From IMG/VR virus record IMGVR_UViG_3300009503_000014, positions 1 through 24,212 of that record: a stretch of 24,212 nt of DNA; one strand, given 5' to 3'. The position numbers were made by a program, and so were the translations under genes. The DNA comes from a virus. Below the pieces are notes generated by a model. That model worked only from the letters and a program-made list of their open reading frames with translations. It had not been told where the DNA came from and searched no databases. Below, piece by piece: positions 2,945 through 24,212 of the stretch. How positions within the stretch are numbered: the first letter of the stretch is position 1; each line of letters begins with the position of its first letter.

Positions 2945-3259
2945 GTGTCAGAAGAAACTTTTGTGAGTAAAGCAGAACACAATTATATTCACTCAAATCT
3001 GCAACGTAAAATTGATGAGACTGAAGCACAATTAAATGGATTAGGGCAGCGGCTAACAAAAGTCGAGCAAGAAATTGCACGAATGCAAGAACGTGATCAA
3101 GCACAATGGCACATGATTGCAAAGCTTGAAGCAAAGATTGATATTGTGTTAACTAAGATTGAAGATATTACAAAAAAATCAGTACGTATTTGGGAAGCGG
3201 TTTTCTTGACTTTCCTTGGCGGATTAGTTGGAGTACTAATCCGCAATGTTTTTAAGTAA
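2945..3259 (+). CDS. XhlA-like membrane protein, possible holin component
   Basis: A 104-aa protein starting at GTG 2945 with AAAGGA at 2932-2937. Residues about 10-75 form a coiled coil (LQRKIDETEAQLNGLGQRLTKVEQEI...), followed by a lysine/arginine boundary and one C-terminal membrane segment (about residues 82-100, AVFLTFLGGLVGVLIRNVF). This coiled coil plus tail-anchor layout matches the haemolysin XhlA family of phage lysis cassettes, which cooperates with a holin in Bacillus phages. It is the last gene of the late operon and far from the main lysis block at 9650-11122. It could instead be a membrane protein of infection or exclusion. Confidence 0.65.
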   Translation: MSEETFVSKAEHNYIHSNLQRKIDETEAQLNGLGQRLTKVEQEIARMQERDQAQWHMIAKLEAKIDIVLTKIEDITKKSVRIWEAVFLTFLGGLVGVLIRNVFK

Positions 3260-3270: not shown

Positions 3271-4470
3271 TTAGGCTAATAAATCTTGAGTTTGAGTAAT
3301 GATTTCAAGATCTTCAGGCAAATAATCTGTGTAATGTTCGGTCATTTCTTCTGATCCATGCCCTGTCATTTTCCTTAATACATCTTCTGAAACTCTTCGG
3401 CGCAGTAATGTATTAAAGAATCTTCTAGTTGAATGAAAAGTTAGATTTCGTTCTTTATAATCATAAATACCAACTTTCTCCATGCGTTTATAAAGCCACT
3501 CCCGGAGCCTGTTTGCTGTAATAGGTGTTTCTTTACCTGGATGGAATGAGAACAAATATCCCTGCTGTTTAATAAAATCTGCAAGTTCATTATAGAGCGA
3601 TTCTGAAATCGGTATTGCCCGGGCGTCCTTATCTTTCGGTATTGTTCTTTTTTTTAATTTTGTACTATATTGGCCTGTTACGTTTATATAATACATCGTT
3701 GTTAATCGATCTTTTTTCTTTATCGTTTTAGTCCTGATATCATCGGTTTGTAATCCGCAGATTTCACCGATTCGTAAACCAGTTAGGAATGCGAGCTTCG
3801 TAGCTAAATAATAAACCCTATCCTTCGTTTCCACCGGCGCATTTAGGATTCTTTCTACTTCATCAAAACTAAATCCACCGAACTTTTTTGAGTTTATAGC
3901 GAGTTGCGGAACGTTTTGCCAGGGATTTTGTTTAATCACTCCTAGACGCACAGCTTCTTTCATCATTGTTGAATAGATACTACGACGATTATTCACGGTT
4001 TTATGTGAGGACCCATCCTGTAACCAGTCAAAAAGCAGGTTCTCACAATCTTGTGATGATATTTTTGAAATAGGTAATTTACCATGGAATGGTTTGATAT
4101 GGTTCTCCCAGATTTTCCTGCCATCTAAAACATAGCGTTCGGTTATAGATGGTTTATCTATAGGCGATCGCAATAGTTTTGAGCGAACATATCTTGATTG
4201 ATCATATTCCCAAAAATGCATCTCATTTTCTACCCAGCTTGTGAGTGTGATAGTGTCAGATATATGCAGTGAATCTTCTTTGAAGAGCTGCTGGAGTTGT
4301 TCTATAGCTCTCTTGATTGACGCTCCTTTTTCTTTCTGCGATTCGAAAGATATCCCTGTTGATTTAATTAGGCGTTTCCCATTCTTATAGAAATAGTAGT
4401 AAATATATTTAACGTTACTGTTTTTTCTCTGTCTAATGAATATACCGAAAGGGAATTTGTTATATCTCAT
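3271..4470 (-). CDS. int: Tyrosine-type site-specific integrase
   Basis: A 399-aa phage integrase. It has an N-terminal arm-binding region (about 1-70), a core-binding SAM-like domain (about 75-185) and a catalytic domain (about 200-390). The catalytic set is visible: Arg233 in LTGLRIGEICGL, His346 and Arg349 in HSTRRF, His371 in MTGHGS and the nucleophile Tyr380 in TEHYTDYL. It would catalyse recombination between attP and a bacterial attB, giving lysogeny. The tRNA 3' end fragment about 110 bases upstream of its start marks the attachment site. It is transcribed leftward, in the same direction as the repressor and away from the early operon, and converges with the late operon. Confidence 0.95.
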   Translation of the reverse strand: MRYNKFPFGIFIRQRKNSNVKYIYYYFYKNGKRLIKSTGISFESQKEKGASIKRAIEQLQQLFKEDSLHISDTITLTSWVENEMHFWEYDQSRYVRSKLLRSPIDKPSITERYVLDGRKIWENHIKPFHGKLPISKISSQDCENLLFDWLQDGSSHKTVNNRRSIYSTMMKEAVRLGVIKQNPWQNVPQLAINSKKFGGFSFDEVERILNAPVETKDRVYYLATKLAFLTGLRIGEICGLQTDDIRTKTIKKKDRLTTMYYINVTGQYSTKLKKRTIPKDKDARAIPISESLYNELADFIKQQGYLFSFHPGKETPITANRLREWLYKRMEKVGIYDYKERNLTFHSTRRFFNTLLRRRVSEDVLRKMTGHGSEEMTEHYTDYLPEDLEIITQTQDLLA

Positions 4471-4582: not shown

Positions 4583-4607
4583 TGGAGGTGGCGGGAATCG
4601 AACCCAC
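4583..4607 (-). other. attP: 3' end of a tRNA or tmRNA gene: attP core
   Basis: Read on the minus strand, the sequence gives a T stem GTGGG, a T loop TTCGATT, the other T stem strand CCCGC (one G-U pair), a 7-base acceptor strand CACCTCC and discriminator A, followed by TATTTTT. No CCA is encoded. Only the 3' part is present; no D or anticodon arm is seen upstream. Phages that integrate into tRNA or tmRNA genes carry this end so that the host gene stays intact. The host gene should begin GGAGGTG (or GGGGGTG if the acceptor contains a G-U pair); I cannot tell which tRNA it is, or whether it is tmRNA. Confidence 0.8.
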
Positions 4608-4751: not shown

Positions 4752-4931
4752 TCATGCTGAGAAATTGTTATCTCTTGTCGGAAGGCTAATGAACGGAATA
4801 TTTAAAAGTATGATCATGAGTTTTTCTATGGCAACATCATTGATGATGACAGCATTGCTTCTATCCTGATGTTCTGCAAGAATACGGTAGGCTTCCCATT
4901 TTACTTGATAATAGCTATTCTTTGATACCAT
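4752..4931 (-). CDS. 59-aa protein coupled to the exonuclease gene
   Basis: On the minus strand, the ATG (4931-4929) overlaps the TAA of the exonuclease (TAATG), so translation is likely coupled. The product begins MVSKNSYYQVKWEAYRILAE and ends in FSA. It is a mixed helical protein with an isoleucine/leucine-rich stretch around residues 38-50 (MIILLNIPFISL), which may be a buried helix or a weak membrane segment. I do not recognise it. The tight overlap suggests it acts with the exonuclease. Confidence 0.6.
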   Translation of the reverse strand: MVSKNSYYQVKWEAYRILAEHQDRSNAVIINDVAIEKLMIILLNIPFISLPTRDNNFSA

Positions 4932-5680
4932 TATAAGCTTGCCTGCTCAAACATCTTTTTAAGAATCTTCAAAGTAATCTCTGCATCATAGATCGCACCA
5001 TGCATTTTATCTGAATCATATTTTATCTGGTAATAATTAGCTGTTTCACTAAGGGAAGGATATTTCCATTCTTGTTTCTTATTGATCCAATATACACAGA
5101 TAATATCCATATTCGCTTTCATTGTATCGAAACGTCTATACTTTTTTATGATGGGAACGAAACCTGCATCGAATGAAATATTATGTCCTGCGAACATGTG
5201 TACACCTTCACAGAATTGTTCAAATTCTTTATCTTCGTCAAAATACTTTGGATAATTTGCGTCACCACGGATCCGTTTTATGGCTTCTTTATTCAATCCA
5301 TTTACTCTTATGGCTTCCTCATTAAAAGGTTCCCTGGGATAGTAATATCGTTCCAACCGACTAATCTCCTTAAATCCAGAATTCTTATCCCATCTAACCC
5401 GTATTGCGCCAATAGATAATACACTATATTCACCCGGGTTCTTTCCATTCGTTTCTGTATCAAGGACAATAATATCTGTTAGATCATCATCGATCCATTC
5501 CAATAGATCAAATCTAGCATTAGTTCTTCGATAGCGATTAATAGCTTGAGTAGAGAAAGATTGATTTTTCTTTTTAAAGAAAATGCGTTTGATTAGCTTT
5601 AGGACTATCTTAATAGCCCTATATATCAAATAAAGGAACCCTGCAATCAATAAAAGAGTTAAAATTATACCGATATCCAT
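4931..5680 (-). CDS. Membrane-anchored DnaQ-like DEDDh 3'-5' exonuclease
   Basis: A 249-aa protein. Residues 3-20 are strongly hydrophobic and followed by a lysine-rich stretch (KLIKRIFFKKK), indicating an N-terminal membrane anchor with the enzyme in the cytoplasm. The exonuclease domain (about 65-245) has the full DEDDh set: Asp74 and Glu76 in VLDTETNG, Asp171 in GHNISFDAGF, and His227 and Asp232 in MHGAIYDAEIT. The family removes nucleotides from 3' ends of DNA or RNA using two metal ions. The start follows AAGGGGGGAAAG. It lies directly downstream of the repressor, so it is probably expressed in the lysogen. Its role is unknown; exclusion of other phages or a DNA-processing function at the membrane are possible. 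Confidence 0.85.
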   Translation of the reverse strand: MDIGIILTLLLIAGFLYLIYRAIKIVLKLIKRIFFKKKNQSFSTQAINRYRRTNARFDLLEWIDDDLTDIIVLDTETNGKNPGEYSVLSIGAIRVRWDKNSGFKEISRLERYYYPREPFNEEAIRVNGLNKEAIKRIRGDANYPKYFDEDKEFEQFCEGVHMFAGHNISFDAGFVPIIKKYRRFDTMKANMDIICVYWINKKQEWKYPSLSETANYYQIKYDSDKMHGAIYDAEITLKILKKMFEQASL

Positions 5681-6423: not shown

Positions 6424-6807
6424 ATGGACATTGAGGATCGATTATACAAAATTGAAGCGCTCCTCGAAAAACTATTAAAACTGCGCAGGCAAACGGTAGT
6501 CAGCCCATGGCTTACTGCCGATGACGCAGCGGAATATCTTTCAATAAATCCTTCTATCCTGCGACGTAAAGCGAAAGCCGGGAAAATAAAGTTTTACCGA
6601 CACCCAGGGACACGGAAAATGTGGTTCCATGTCCAGGATTTAGATGCCTATGTAAGAGGTGGTTGTTATGAAAATCCAAAAACAAACGAGACGGAGTGTG
6701 AGAGCGAAGGAGAAAAAGAGATTAATAAAGGAGCTGGACAGAATCTTCTCTTTCTATATCCGAAACAGGGACGGGTGGAAATGCGTAACGTGCGGGAGCA
6801 CCGATAA
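6424..6807 (+). CDS. Excisionase-like HTH protein
   Basis: A 127-aa protein. Residues 1-22 are helical and charged (MDIEDRLYKIEALLEKLLKL). Residues 29-78 form a MerR/excisionase-type winged helix (LTADDAAEYLSINPSILRRK, KFYRHPGTRKMWFHVQDLDAYV), as in Xis and phage DNA-bending or terminase-like HTH_17 proteins. The HTH domain ends at about residue 79, close to where the NinG-like gene begins (6668). The last 48 residues are translated from DNA that also encodes that gene in another frame, and they look like non-native sequence. No Shine-Dalgarno sequence precedes ATG 6424. Likely role: excision or regulation. Confidence 0.7.
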   Translation: MDIEDRLYKIEALLEKLLKLRRQTVVSPWLTADDAAEYLSINPSILRRKAKAGKIKFYRHPGTRKMWFHVQDLDAYVRGGCYENPKTNETECESEGEKEINKGAGQNLLFLYPKQGRVEMRNVREHR

Positions 6808-7126
6808 AGAATCTCTCCAGTGCGGGCACTTGTTTTCGAGAATTAGTTACAACACACGATGGGATGAGCGTAATGCTTATTGTCAATGTAATTGTTGCAA
6901 TTTTAGGCATGAGCACGATCCGGGCCCACTAACAAGCTATTTCTTATCGCTATATAGCTCAAGAGAGTATCAAAAATTATACAACGAATCACATAAACAA
7001 CGCCATTTTTACAACTACGATTTAATAAAGTTAATTGATTATTACAAAGCAAGATTAAAAGAAATGGGGGTGGAGTATGACACAGACAAAAACGGCAAAA
7101 TGGAATCTGACGGCGCAGCAAGCTAG
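6668..7126 (+). CDS. ninG: NinG/Rap-like recombination nuclease
   Basis: A 152-aa protein from ATG 6668 behind AGAGGTGG. A basic N-terminus (KIQKQTRRSVRAKEKKRLIKE) leads into a zinc/HNH-like core: CVTCGS, LQCGHLFSR, then RWDERNAYCQCNCCNFRHEHDPG. This matches lambda NinG (Rap), which cuts branched DNA such as Holliday junctions and D-loops to promote recombination. It overlaps the upstream HTH gene by 140 bases and the next gene by 50. It would act with the recombination-region protein at 7286. Confidence 0.8.
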   Translation: MKIQKQTRRSVRAKEKKRLIKELDRIFSFYIRNRDGWKCVTCGSTDKESLQCGHLFSRISYNTRWDERNAYCQCNCCNFRHEHDPGPLTSYFLSLYSSREYQKLYNESHKQRHFYNYDLIKLIDYYKARLKEMGVEYDTDKNGKMESDGAAS

Positions 7127-9649: not shown

Positions 9650-10117
9650 ATGATAAAGCTTTTGGCTCTGCCCTACGGATTAAGAGAAATAATGAATTAT
9701 TATGGGGATCCTCTTTCTCCGACATTTGCAGAAGAGAATCTATCTATTTTCCAGCTTCCGTTCGAGCTCCTGCTTTCATGGTCCGGAGAAACTTTGAGAA
9801 AAGTATATTGCCATAAAAAGGTTGGGGAAGCCTTCATAGATGCCTTGTATGAGATCAAAGAAATTGCCGGTGAATCCTATTTGAAAAAGTATTGTCTGAA
9901 TCAATTCGGGGGATGTTACAACAATCGTAGAAAAATAAATAGCAATGAACTATCAACGCATGCATGGGGCATAGCATTTGATATGTGCCCAGCTCTTGGC
10001 CCTTATGGAGAACCGGGTAGGCTACCATGGTGGTATGTAGAAGCATTTAATAAACGAGGGTTTGTTAATTTATGGCAAATTGATGGTATGCATTTCCAGG
10101 CATGTGCTGGTTATTAA
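9650..10117 (+). CDS. Endolysin, M15-family D-Ala peptidase
   Basis: A 155-aa cytoplasmic-type endolysin with no signal peptide. The zinc-site motifs of M15 peptidases are clear: His104 and Asp111 in STHAWGIAFDMCP, and His148 in DGMHFQAC, with Asp145 as likely catalytic acid/base. Members of this group cleave peptide cross-links of peptidoglycan. The domain occupies about residues 60-155; residues 1-55 are not recognised. It starts behind AGAGGGG. It opens the lysis block, followed by holin- and spanin-like genes. As it lacks a signal, release would depend on a holin. Confidence 0.88.
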   Translation: MIKLLALPYGLREIMNYYGDPLSPTFAEENLSIFQLPFELLLSWSGETLRKVYCHKKVGEAFIDALYEIKEIAGESYLKKYCLNQFGGCYNNRRKINSNELSTHAWGIAFDMCPALGPYGEPGRLPWWYVEAFNKRGFVNLWQIDGMHFQACAGY

Positions 10118-10170: not shown

Positions 10171-10488
10171 ATGATTGTATTAGAAAAAACAGAAAACATT
10201 AATATTACCGGAATTATCGAAAAGAGCATTTATATATTCGTAGAGTTCATAAAAGATGAAAAAAATCCTGATATGGTTATAATCAATGTAAGCATAGATG
10301 ATATTAAGCTATTATTTCGTGAGCATCCAGATATTATTACAACTAGCGTACGTGTGTATAAAGAATTCGTACAGGTTAATAAAGAGATCAAAAAATTGAA
10401 TGTTGGAGATAGTTTTGATTTATTTGTAGATGGAGATCGTTCTTCGCTTGAAGTACATATCAAAGAAATAACACAAATACAAAAATAA
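10171..10488 (+). CDS. 105-aa protein of unknown function in the lysis block
   Basis: A strong AGGAGGT precedes ATG 10171. The protein is a mixed alpha/beta type with many Ile, Val, Asp and Lys and no membrane segment, signal or cysteine. It lies between endolysin and holin candidates, after a 53-base gap that contains only a weak promoter-like pair (TTGAAT at 10118, TATTTG at 10141). I do not recognise it. It may regulate lysis timing or start the late block. Confidence 0.65.
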   Translation: MIVLEKTENINITGIIEKSIYIFVEFIKDEKNPDMVIINVSIDDIKLLFREHPDIITTSVRVYKEFVQVNKEIKKLNVGDSFDLFVDGDRSSLEVHIKEITQIQK

Positions 10489-10502: not shown

Positions 10503-10775
10503 ATGAAGACTAAAAAAATATTAAGAGGTAGAGATATGAGTAAAATTAAACAAATACATATCCTGCAATTCTCAACAGTTATGATGTTTATCATTATGGT
10601 TTTATGTGGAATTTATATATTGTTTTTCGATACTGGTAAAATTGATGCTTATGGCAGATTAATAAATATTTTATTCCCGATTTTTGTTGCAGAAGTAATA
10701 CCTGCATTAATTGGTTCTCCTCTATCGAAAGCTGTAGAAAACTTAACACAAAAAAAAGGAGGTGATGGTGTTTGA
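10503..10775 (+). CDS. Holin candidate with two start sites
   Basis: A 90-aa protein with two hydrophobic segments (about residues 22-43, FSTVMMFIIMVLCGIYILFF, and about 53-73, LINILFPIFVAEVIPALIGS), a basic N-terminus and a charged C-terminus, the size and layout of a small holin. ATG 10503 follows AAGGAG. A second in-frame ATG at 10536 follows AGAGGT, which would remove 11 residues carrying five basic charges (KTKKILRGR). Lambda S uses such a dual start to make holin and antiholin. Position between endolysin and spanins supports the call, but there is no family-specific motif. Confidence 0.6.
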   Translation: MKTKKILRGRDMSKIKQIHILQFSTVMMFIIMVLCGIYILFFDTGKIDAYGRLINILFPIFVAEVIPALIGSPLSKAVENLTQKKGGDGV

Positions 10776-11064
10776 AGCGATTATTAGTTTTATCATTGGT
10801 GTTTGTATTACTCTGTTCGCAATTGTATTCGGTAGAAAATCAGGTACTAATACAAGTACAGAAATTAGAGGAGGTAATCCAGGAAATGGAAAACTATTTG
10901 ACAAAATTAGAGAAGAACAACGAGCAGCTAAAGAACGAATTGAAAATAGTGAACGAGTCCTTGAACAAAACGAACGAGTTATATCAGACGCAAAAGATCG
11001 AATATCAAAAGCTAGAGAAATCCTTGGAAGAATTAAACAAGGAATACAAAACGTTGATGATTAA
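10768..11064 (+). CDS. Rz-like inner-membrane spanin candidate
   Basis: About 98 aa, starting at GTG 10768 (ATG 10765 or GTG 10762 are alternatives). Upstream lies AAGGAGGTGAT, a full-length match to the 16S anti-Shine-Dalgarno. Residues 2-22 form a membrane helix (EAIISFIIGVCITLFAIVFG) followed by GRK, then a Gly-rich linker and a charged coiled coil (IREEQRAAKERIENSERVLE...ISDAKDRISKAREILGRI). An N-terminal anchor plus a periplasmic coiled coil is the architecture of Rz-type i-spanins, which link to an outer-membrane lipoprotein and fuse the membranes. It almost fully overlaps the next gene in another frame. Confidence 0.6.
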   Translation: MFEAIISFIIGVCITLFAIVFGRKSGTNTSTEIRGGNPGNGKLFDKIREEQRAAKERIENSERVLEQNERVISDAKDRISKAREILGRIKQGIQNVDD

Positions 11065-11122
11065 AAATATCATACTAACAATATTATTGGGATCATTGGC
11101 AATGGCTTTGGTGATTAAATGA
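10772..11122 (+). CDS. Lipoprotein-like spanin candidate in an overlapping frame
   Basis: A 116-aa protein starting at TTG 10772 (TTGA overlaps the holin stop), nine bases after AGGAGG. Residues 1-15 are a short signal sequence ending at Cys15 (MKRLLVLSLVFVLLC), a relaxed lipobox with Leu at -1. A long coiled coil follows (about residues 28-92), and the C-terminus is a membrane helix (IKNIILTILLGSLAMALVIK). A lipoprotein signal at one end and a membrane helix at the other is the layout of unimolecular spanins such as T1 gp11. Being nested with an Rz-like frame also recalls Rz/Rz1. If Cys15 is not lipidated, it may be a secreted or bitopic protein. Confidence 0.65.
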   Translation: MKRLLVLSLVFVLLCSQLYSVENQVLIQVQKLEEVIQEMENYLTKLEKNNEQLKNELKIVNESLNKTNELYQTQKIEYQKLEKSLEELNKEYKTLMIKNIILTILLGSLAMALVIK

Positions 11123-22458: not shown

Positions 22459-24212
22459 ATGGCCTATTCGATACAAATAAAGTTTGGTACAGAATGGCAA
22501 AATTATGAAGGTACTATTTCTGATTTAGTAATTACAGAGGTATTGCATAATAATCTAAAACCTGCCGATGCCTCTTGCACATTTTCTCTCGTACCTAATA
22601 TTGCTTTATTTAATCTTTTGCGAGGAATTGATACTGCAAACATTCAAGCAAGAGTATTGCAAAATTCTACAATTCTTTTCAGTGGATATATTCGCAAGAC
22701 ATTTGAGTTTAAAAAAACACAACGATTACAGCCTGTTAAAGTGGAGTTGGTGAGTCCATCCTTCATATTGAAGAAAAAAATCACTTCTGAGTTTCGGTAT
22801 ACAAATACATCGCTCAATACGATTATAATTGCATTGCTCAATGCATGTGGTATTACGAACTATGATATCCCAGACTTTAATATAACAGTGCCTGTTTTTC
22901 TTGCTACGTTAGAGGAATCATATCATGATGTACTTGCAACTCTATTATTTGAGTATGGCTATGTATTTTATTTCAATAATGAGGGGCAATTTAAAGTATA
23001 TCGTTACTATCCTGATTCTTTAAGCACAATTAAGGAATTTAACGGAACGAACTGTATTGATGAGATCTCACAGACGAAGAAAGAAGAGCAGAAAGAAAAG
23101 ATTATTGTAAAATGGTATGAGATTAAGGATCTGAGCAATATAATAGTTTTTAGCGACACCACAAATGCAAAGGATGGATATAAATGTTATATAACACTTC
23201 CACCTCAACAATATCTTGGTGGTAAAGAGGAATGGTTTGCCGAGTTTAACCACGAGGAAGGAGAAATCATTTTCGCTTCAGGAATAAATCTGAGTATAGA
23301 TAAAGGACAATACATACAGGTTCTTAAATTTGAGCAACGGGGAAATCGGGCATTATTAAGCATAAAAAATACCTCTACACTGTATGATGATCGAATACTC
23401 AAGCTGGACATCACTGCATCAACGGTAAAAGTGAAGAAAAATATTAATACATCTATTGTACAGAGATCTGCTACGCCGAATGATGCAGAAGAAATAGAAA
23501 CAAAATACATATTTAGCAAAACTTATGCGGATGCGCTTGCGAATTACCTGTCATGGTATCATAAATATTGCGATTATACATATAATCTTAAATCAAAAAC
23601 GAATTATGCCATCGGAGATCTAGTAATTATCTCTGAATATGGTCTAGGAAGCATTACGGCACGAATTACAAAACGAACTATAAAATTACAAACTGGTGTG
23701 ATTGAATATGAATTGGAGGGAGTTTCAGAATATACTCCTGTTACAGCTGATGGTGGTAGCTATATAGAAAATAGGATCCCAGCTCAAACATTAGATAACT
23801 TATATAATCAAATTGATGGAATCAATCAAACGCTTGCTGGTCAAAATAGGGACCAGACTATACCACTAAATCCTTTAGCTCTTGAAGCTAAAGCTTATAT
23901 CGATGGTATTTATATACGAATAATACCAGCTGATAGTGGTACATTGCTACAACAAGCAGTTAAATATCGCATTCAACGAAGCACAGATGAAGGATCAACA
24001 TGGTATGATATAAATGGCGTTCTAAATGGTTCTGCTACGATTGAGAACTCACAATATTTTTGGCAATTTAATCGATCTGTCGATGGTTATCCAGAAGCTA
24101 GTGGCAATCCTGAGCCATGGCCCCCTCTTTCGAGTTACAGATTTAGAATAAAGGCTGTCAATTCTATAGGAACGGAAGCACCGGACTGGTTATATATATC
24201 ATCTGTTGATAC
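22459..24212 (+). CDS. Tail tip / receptor-binding protein, N-terminal part (continues at base 3)
   Basis: ATG 22459 lies three bases after the tape measure stop, with only a weak AGGAT upstream, so translation is probably coupled. The frame is open to the window end and continues at base 3 of the left end. Residues 1-430 form a hub-like region with alternating strands (SIQIKFGTEWQNYEGTISDL, FSLVPNIALFNLL, NYAIGDLVIISEYGLGSITA), followed by helix LDNLYNQIDGINQTL and an FN3-like segment (AYIDGIYIRI to [12 protein letters not shown]). The layout is that of a siphovirus distal tail hub fused to the host-binding part. Confidence 0.85.
   Translation, partial: MAYSIQIKFGTEWQNYEGTISDLVITEVLHNNLKPADASCTFSLVPNIALFNLLRGIDTANIQARVLQNSTILFSGYIRKTFEFKKTQRLQPVKVELVSPSFILKKKITSEFRYTNTSLNTIIIALLNACGITNYDIPDFNITVPVFLATLEESYHDVLATLLFEYGYVFYFNNEGQFKVYRYYPDSLSTIKEFNGTNCIDEISQTKKEEQKEKIIVKWYEIKDLSNIIVFSDTTNAKDGYKCYITLPPQQYLGGKEEWFAEFNHEEGEIIFASGINLSIDKGQYIQVLKFEQRGNRALLSIKNTSTLYDDRILKLDITASTVKVKKNINTSIVQRSATPNDAEEIETKYIFSKTYADALANYLSWYHKYCDYTYNLKSKTNYAIGDLVIISEYGLGSITARITKRTIKLQTGVIEYELEGVSEYTPVTADGGSYIENRIPAQTLDNLYNQIDGINQTLAGQNRDQTIPLNPLALEAKAYIDGIYIRIIPADSGTLLQQAVKYRIQRSTDEGSTWYDINGVLNGSATIENSQYFWQFNRSVDGYPEASGNPEPWPPLSSYRFRIKAVNSIGTEAPDWLYISSVD
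24113..24212. repeat. 100-bp terminal direct repeat, right copy
   Basis: Identical to 1-100; see that entry. The reading frame of the tail tip gene is the same in both copies. Confidence 0.95.

Follow-up and report, generated by a model that had tools for sequence, protein, structure and literature searches.

Overlapping spanin genes are common in phages and are usually overlooked by annotation (PMC6139136). Two-component spanin pairs, of which Rz/Rz1 is the classical type, are overlapped in 228 of 528 cases (PMC6139136), and in 507 of the 528 a cysteine is present in the periplasmic part of either subunit. The unimolecular spanins (u-spanins) have no periplasmic cysteine in any of the 58 known examples (58/58), and their main family, that of T1 gp11, is beta-rich (PMC6139136). 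The lipobox follows the consensus [LVI][ASTVI][GAS]C, with AWAC, LNGC and FVGC as reported variants (PMC6139136). In the known cases in which spanins share DNA, nesting is confined to part of one gene or to a short lipoprotein. For overprinted viral genes in general, the correlation of codon usage with the genome has been used as a criterion to tell the ancestral frame from the overprinted one (PMC3744397).

Here we describe a locus in which nearly the whole of two genes, referred to as frames A and B, overlaps from a common start, and in which both products are coiled-coil-like with membrane anchors. It is highly probable that A and B are both coding. The spanin and overprinting literature searched contained no case in which two genes for helical membrane-anchored proteins overlap almost completely from a shared start. 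If both products are made, the locus would clearly exemplify how overprinting can give rise to a lysis protein, perhaps a u-spanin of helical type, and how one ribosome-binding site can serve two lysis genes. We put the probability that B acts in a spanin-like way, whether or not A takes part, at about 0.5.

The phage, its host bin and the lysis cassette

The window, that is, the whole stretch of DNA analysed, is 24,212 bases long. Its ends are identical over 100 bases (1-100 and 24113-24212), and this terminal repeat indicates a closed circular genome that is complete at about 24.1 kb. The phage encodes an integrase (3271-4470), excisionase-like, replication and HNH proteins, the large terminase, portal, protease, capsid, tape measure and tail genes. 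This content of integrase, excisionase-like, replication, endolysin, terminase, portal, capsid and tail genes points to a temperate tailed phage.

The phage is contig 2 of an 895-contig MAG (88% complete, 6% contamination), and its GC content, 0.374, is the same as in the other contigs of the bin (0.35-0.38). The UvrD-type helicase of the bin clusters with Candidatus Poribacteria (support 96), a phylum represented as a whole by 85 genomes in the collection searched. No host 16S was found in the bin. The presence of Omp85 in the bin indicates that the host is diderm. The host, which is linked to the phage by binning alone, appears to be a poribacterial-like, diderm, uncultured bacterium. Adjoining the integrase, at about 4584-4605, is a tRNA 3'-end-like sequence that is probably attP; when a second copy of this 22-base sequence was sought in the bin, only the phage copy was found, and no attB. 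Beside a repressor-like gene, a 249-aa ORF (4931-5680, minus strand) has an N-terminal membrane helix and, by eye, a DnaQ-type exonuclease motif, and its product is possibly a membrane-anchored nuclease.

Judged by its sequence, the phage is without a near relative in the collections searched. TerL gave only 30-34% matches, the best being to Geobacillus phages at about 34% identity. Homologue searches were empty for the endolysin and also for the capsid, the portal and the holin-like ORF, the capsid and portal having no match in viral_contigs. Frames A and B had no homologue in viral_contigs or phages, and against 194 relatives they gave only weak coiled-coil noise. The features of the cassette are as follows.

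9650-10117, plus strand: M15 peptidase endolysin (Pfam PF13539, 28.2 bits, over the cut-off; PHROG 17001 endolysin, E 2.4e-18)
10171-10488, plus strand: ORF in the lysis cassette with no assigned function
10503-10775, plus strand: two-TM holin-like ORF, 90 aa (no family match; putative holin from topology only)
10756-10766, plus strand: Shine-Dalgarno (SD) sequence AAGGAGGTGAT, 11 bases, perfect complement of the usual 16S 3' end
10762/10765/10768-11064, plus strand: frame A, 98-100 aa (starts GTG10762, ATG10765 and GTG10768; stop TAA)
10772-11122, plus strand: frame B, 116 aa (start TTG10772; stop TGA)
11060-11122, plus strand: tail of B beyond the A stop, coding for a C-terminal membrane helix
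11119-11244, plus strand: 41-aa ORF whose ATG overlaps the B stop as ATGA (no family match)

The lysis-cassette context of B is given by an M15 endolysin that exceeds the Pfam cut-off and by a holin recognized from topology only. A and B lie on the same strand with about 290 bases in common, and the third frame across this stretch is full of stops. A preliminary description of this DNA had noted two plausible membrane/coiled-coil frames and a single SD near GTG10768 and TTG10772. Both observations hold: openness and features of the two frames go beyond chance in the tests given below, and the SD, which falls within the 3'-terminal part of the holin-like ORF at a workable distance from the A and B starts, matches the anti-SD perfectly, with GGAGG 5 nt away from GTG10768 and 9 nt away from TTG10772. 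The TTG of B overlaps the TGA stop of the holin-like ORF as TTGA. A hairpin controlling the A and B starts was sought, and none was found beyond chance (z 0.09).

An XhlA/hemolysin-like ORF (2945-3259, plus strand), which closes the tail operon and lies apart from the endolysin, codes for a second lysis-like coiled-coil protein of the phage, which is 104 aa long and has a coiled coil and a C-terminal TM (PHROG 937, E 3e-5).

Architecture and candidate roles of the two products

Protein A consists of an N-terminal membrane helix, a Gly/Asn-rich linker and a 60-residue amphipathic helix. Protein B has an export signal (K2-R3, h-region 4-15), a coiled coil at about 22-95 and a C-terminal hydrophobic membrane helix at about 98-115. 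These predicted topologies were read from the sequence itself, no trained predictor of signal peptides or TM helices being used. The AlphaFold models, which are single-sequence and tell little more than that the chains are helical, gave a membrane helix (2-23), a disordered linker and a helix (39-98) for A, and a single helix (2-115, pLDDT 95.7) for B. The only cysteine of B, C15, is in the signal and that of A is in the TM, and neither protein has a periplasmic cysteine. Searches of Pfam, PHROGs and NCBIfam yielded no firm match for A, and for B they returned only matches of a generic coiled-coil kind.

The position of the pair after the endolysin and holin-like genes, together with two membrane-anchored coiled coils, suggests a function in the step that completes lysis of a diderm host, and the layout of B is most likely nearer to a unimolecular spanin than to Rz/Rz1. 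The preliminary description ascribed to B the layout of the u-spanin T1 gp11. B shares with the T1 gp11 u-spanins an export signal, a periplasmic segment, a C-terminal TM, the lack of a periplasmic cysteine and a place at the end of the cassette. It has no canonical lipobox and no beta-rich domain: in contrast to T1 gp11, B is all-helical (in a single-sequence model) and almost wholly overlapped by A, and no sequence similarity of B to this family was found. The lipoprotein-like signal that had been read into B could not be upheld, as V-L-L-C at residues 12-15 fails the consensus and differs from all three reported variants, and a six-frame scan of the phage found no canonical lipoprotein. Because VLLC is non-canonical, an outer-membrane anchor of B is doubtful. 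B may either be lipidated at an odd site, or be cleaved by signal peptidase I into a type I inner-membrane protein, or keep the signal as a second anchor.

The description of A as Rz-like was borne out for the N-terminal TM and the helix, which follow the order of an i-spanin; the flank charges leave the membrane orientation ambiguous. The flanks of the TM are acidic (Glu) before and basic (Arg-Lys) after, which favours C-in and a cytoplasmic rod. Lambda Rz likewise has a basic C-flank.

We propose that the last part of the lysis cassette would be an overprinted gene pair. A would be the older gene, and its small product would be anchored in the inner membrane by its N terminus and carry a helical rod. 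B would have arisen atop A in the +1 frame and would then have been shaped into an exported coiled coil, held in the inner membrane by its C-terminal helix. Both would be translated from one strong ribosome-binding site within the holin-like gene, with ribosomes probably gaining access to B through termination-reinitiation at TTGA. The holin and the M15 endolysin would open the inner membrane and the wall first, and B, alone or zippered with A, would then most likely act on the outer membrane in a spanin-like manner. In this mechanism we infer the translation of both frames, the topologies, the partnership of A and B and the disruption of the outer membrane; the spanin assignment is putative, and B would be most like a helical u-spanin. 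A stronger proposal would be that these 361 bases hold a complete spanin-like system, in which an all-helical B, anchored at both ends, was overprinted de novo on an older membrane-anchored helical A, with both starts lying within 10 bases under one SD, and the two proteins, neither with a canonical lipobox, cooperating at the outer membrane. We regard this stronger proposal as rather unlikely.

The main alternative, which we entertain tentatively, is that both frames are genes whose products do not disrupt the outer membrane. These products would then have an accessory part in lysis at the inner membrane, as XhlA-like proteins or as regulators of the holin, or B would be a type I inner-membrane protein without an outer-membrane anchor, cut by signal peptidase I after S16 or S20. 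The non-canonical lipobox of B, the absence of a canonical lipoprotein from all six frames of the phage and the flank charges of A are in keeping with such roles, and so is a match of the coil and TM of B to PHROG 1193 'hemolysin', which is weak and coil-driven (E 0.003). XhlA-type proteins (PF10779, PHROG 1193/937) have in common with B a small coiled coil and a C-terminal TM. However, B has an export signal, which XhlA proteins are not known to have; PF10779 was absent from the best 25 Pfam matches of B, and the ORF at 2945-3259 is the better XhlA-like candidate. It should be added that an inner-membrane protein of type I whose TM is C-terminal has been considered a possible i-spanin, in a form so far undescribed (PMC6139136), so that this alternative shades into the preferred reading of B as spanin-like.

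A classical two-component spanin, with A as the i-spanin and B as a lipoprotein o-spanin in extreme overlap, appears quite improbable. As in embedded or overlapped Rz/Rz1, two lysis-region membrane proteins lie on the same DNA in two frames, A has an N-terminal TM followed by a coiled coil, and the overlapped architecture is common, as the numbers given at the outset indicate. But the A and B starts are 4-10 bases apart under one SD, instead of the second start being late or nested, and in the described overlapped pairs the i-spanin is overlapped at its end by the o-spanin, which does not begin 4 bases after the i-spanin start. Moreover, B has a strong C-terminal TM, which is absent from o-spanins, and about 96% of pairs have the periplasmic cysteine that A and B lack. 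The absence of a canonical lipoprotein and of periplasmic cysteines makes a classical Rz/Rz1 pair unlikely.

Evidence for constraint on both frames, and their probable relative age

T-rich DNA gives hydrophobic residues and purine-rich DNA gives charged helices in several frames, so resemblance alone is no proof that a frame is coding. In the tests of openness, one protein was fixed, synonymous codons were redrawn from phage usage, and the other frame was scored. With protein B fixed, A was open in none of 20,000 trials (0/20000; analytically 10^-7.1 over 22 closing sites), and with B's own codon set P was 0.008. At all 22 sites of B where a common synonym would close A, the closing synonym is avoided (22/22, log10 P -7.1). 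For example, Asn at closing sites is AAC in 7/7, as against AAT for 77% of Asn codons genome-wide, and Tyr is TAC at the single closing site and TAT at 4/4 harmless sites. ATT AA sites, which would close frame A, occur twice beyond the A stop (within 11060-11122) and nowhere inside the overlap. With protein A fixed, B was open at P 0.0033 in simulation (0.3%; analytically 10^-2.8). In composition, A has a GC3 of 0.12, which is under all 108 windows of other phage genes, and B has a third-position purine fraction of 0.77, which is over all 108.

In the feature tests, one protein was likewise fixed and the other frame was kept open in the null. Given A, B exceeded the null in heptad moment (P 0.00025), a/d score (0/4000) and signal h-region (P 0.003); with the exact codon set of A, the heptad value was P 0.0037 and N-terminal hydrophobicity was not significant (P 0.11). 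Given B, A exceeded the null in TM hydrophobicity (P 0.001), heptad (P 0.017) and codon likelihood (P 0.0035), and with the exact codon set of B its features could not be told apart from the null except for helix propensity (P 0.01). For calibration, the same test was applied to the shadow frames of greatest length in the host bin and the phage, 29 in number besides A. P values of these control ORFs were roughly uniform, the lowest being 0.015 for the a/d score and 0.008 for the heptad moment. These single-genome synonymous-codon tests favour coding constraint on both frames.

That only A is a gene, with B as the open shadow of a purine-rich coiled-coil gene, is very unlikely. Codon usage is normal in A and not in B, and a long open frame was rejected as sufficient proof of B, since the host bin has roughly one shadow run of at least 96 codons for every 10,000 codons. 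As long open shadows are not rare, the weight lies on openness, composition, the feature tests and the operon junctions. Against a shadow origin, the heptads and h-region of B go beyond the null given A, none of the 29 control shadows is comparable on the a/d score (0/29), and B extends beyond the A stop into a membrane helix and joins its neighbours through TTGA and ATGA. The converse, that only B is a gene and A its shadow, can hardly hold: B tiles the operon via these two junctions and the amphipathicity of A is in part a consequence of B, but the openness of A has P of about 1e-7 given B and phage codon usage (0.008 with B's codon set, as above), and A has gene-like codon usage and a TM in excess of the null. 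In this way the wobble positions of each frame allow a case for dual coding to be made even where a phage is an orphan with no homologues.

The codon usage of A fits the genome (LLR +0.17 per codon, rs 0.67), whereas that of B deviates (LLR -0.07; rs 0.34 in the overlap). By the codon-usage criterion (PMC3744397), applied to the rs values as such, the genome-like usage of A and not of B suggests that A is ancestral and B the overprint. The locus shares with de novo overprinted viral genes (PMC3744397) one frame of genomic codon usage and one deviant frame; it differs from them in that it belongs to a DNA phage and in that both products look structured, helical and membrane-bound. Elsewhere in the phage, the excisionase-like ORF (6424-6807, plus strand) and the HNH-like ORF (6659-7126, plus strand) overlap by about 150 bases in different frames.
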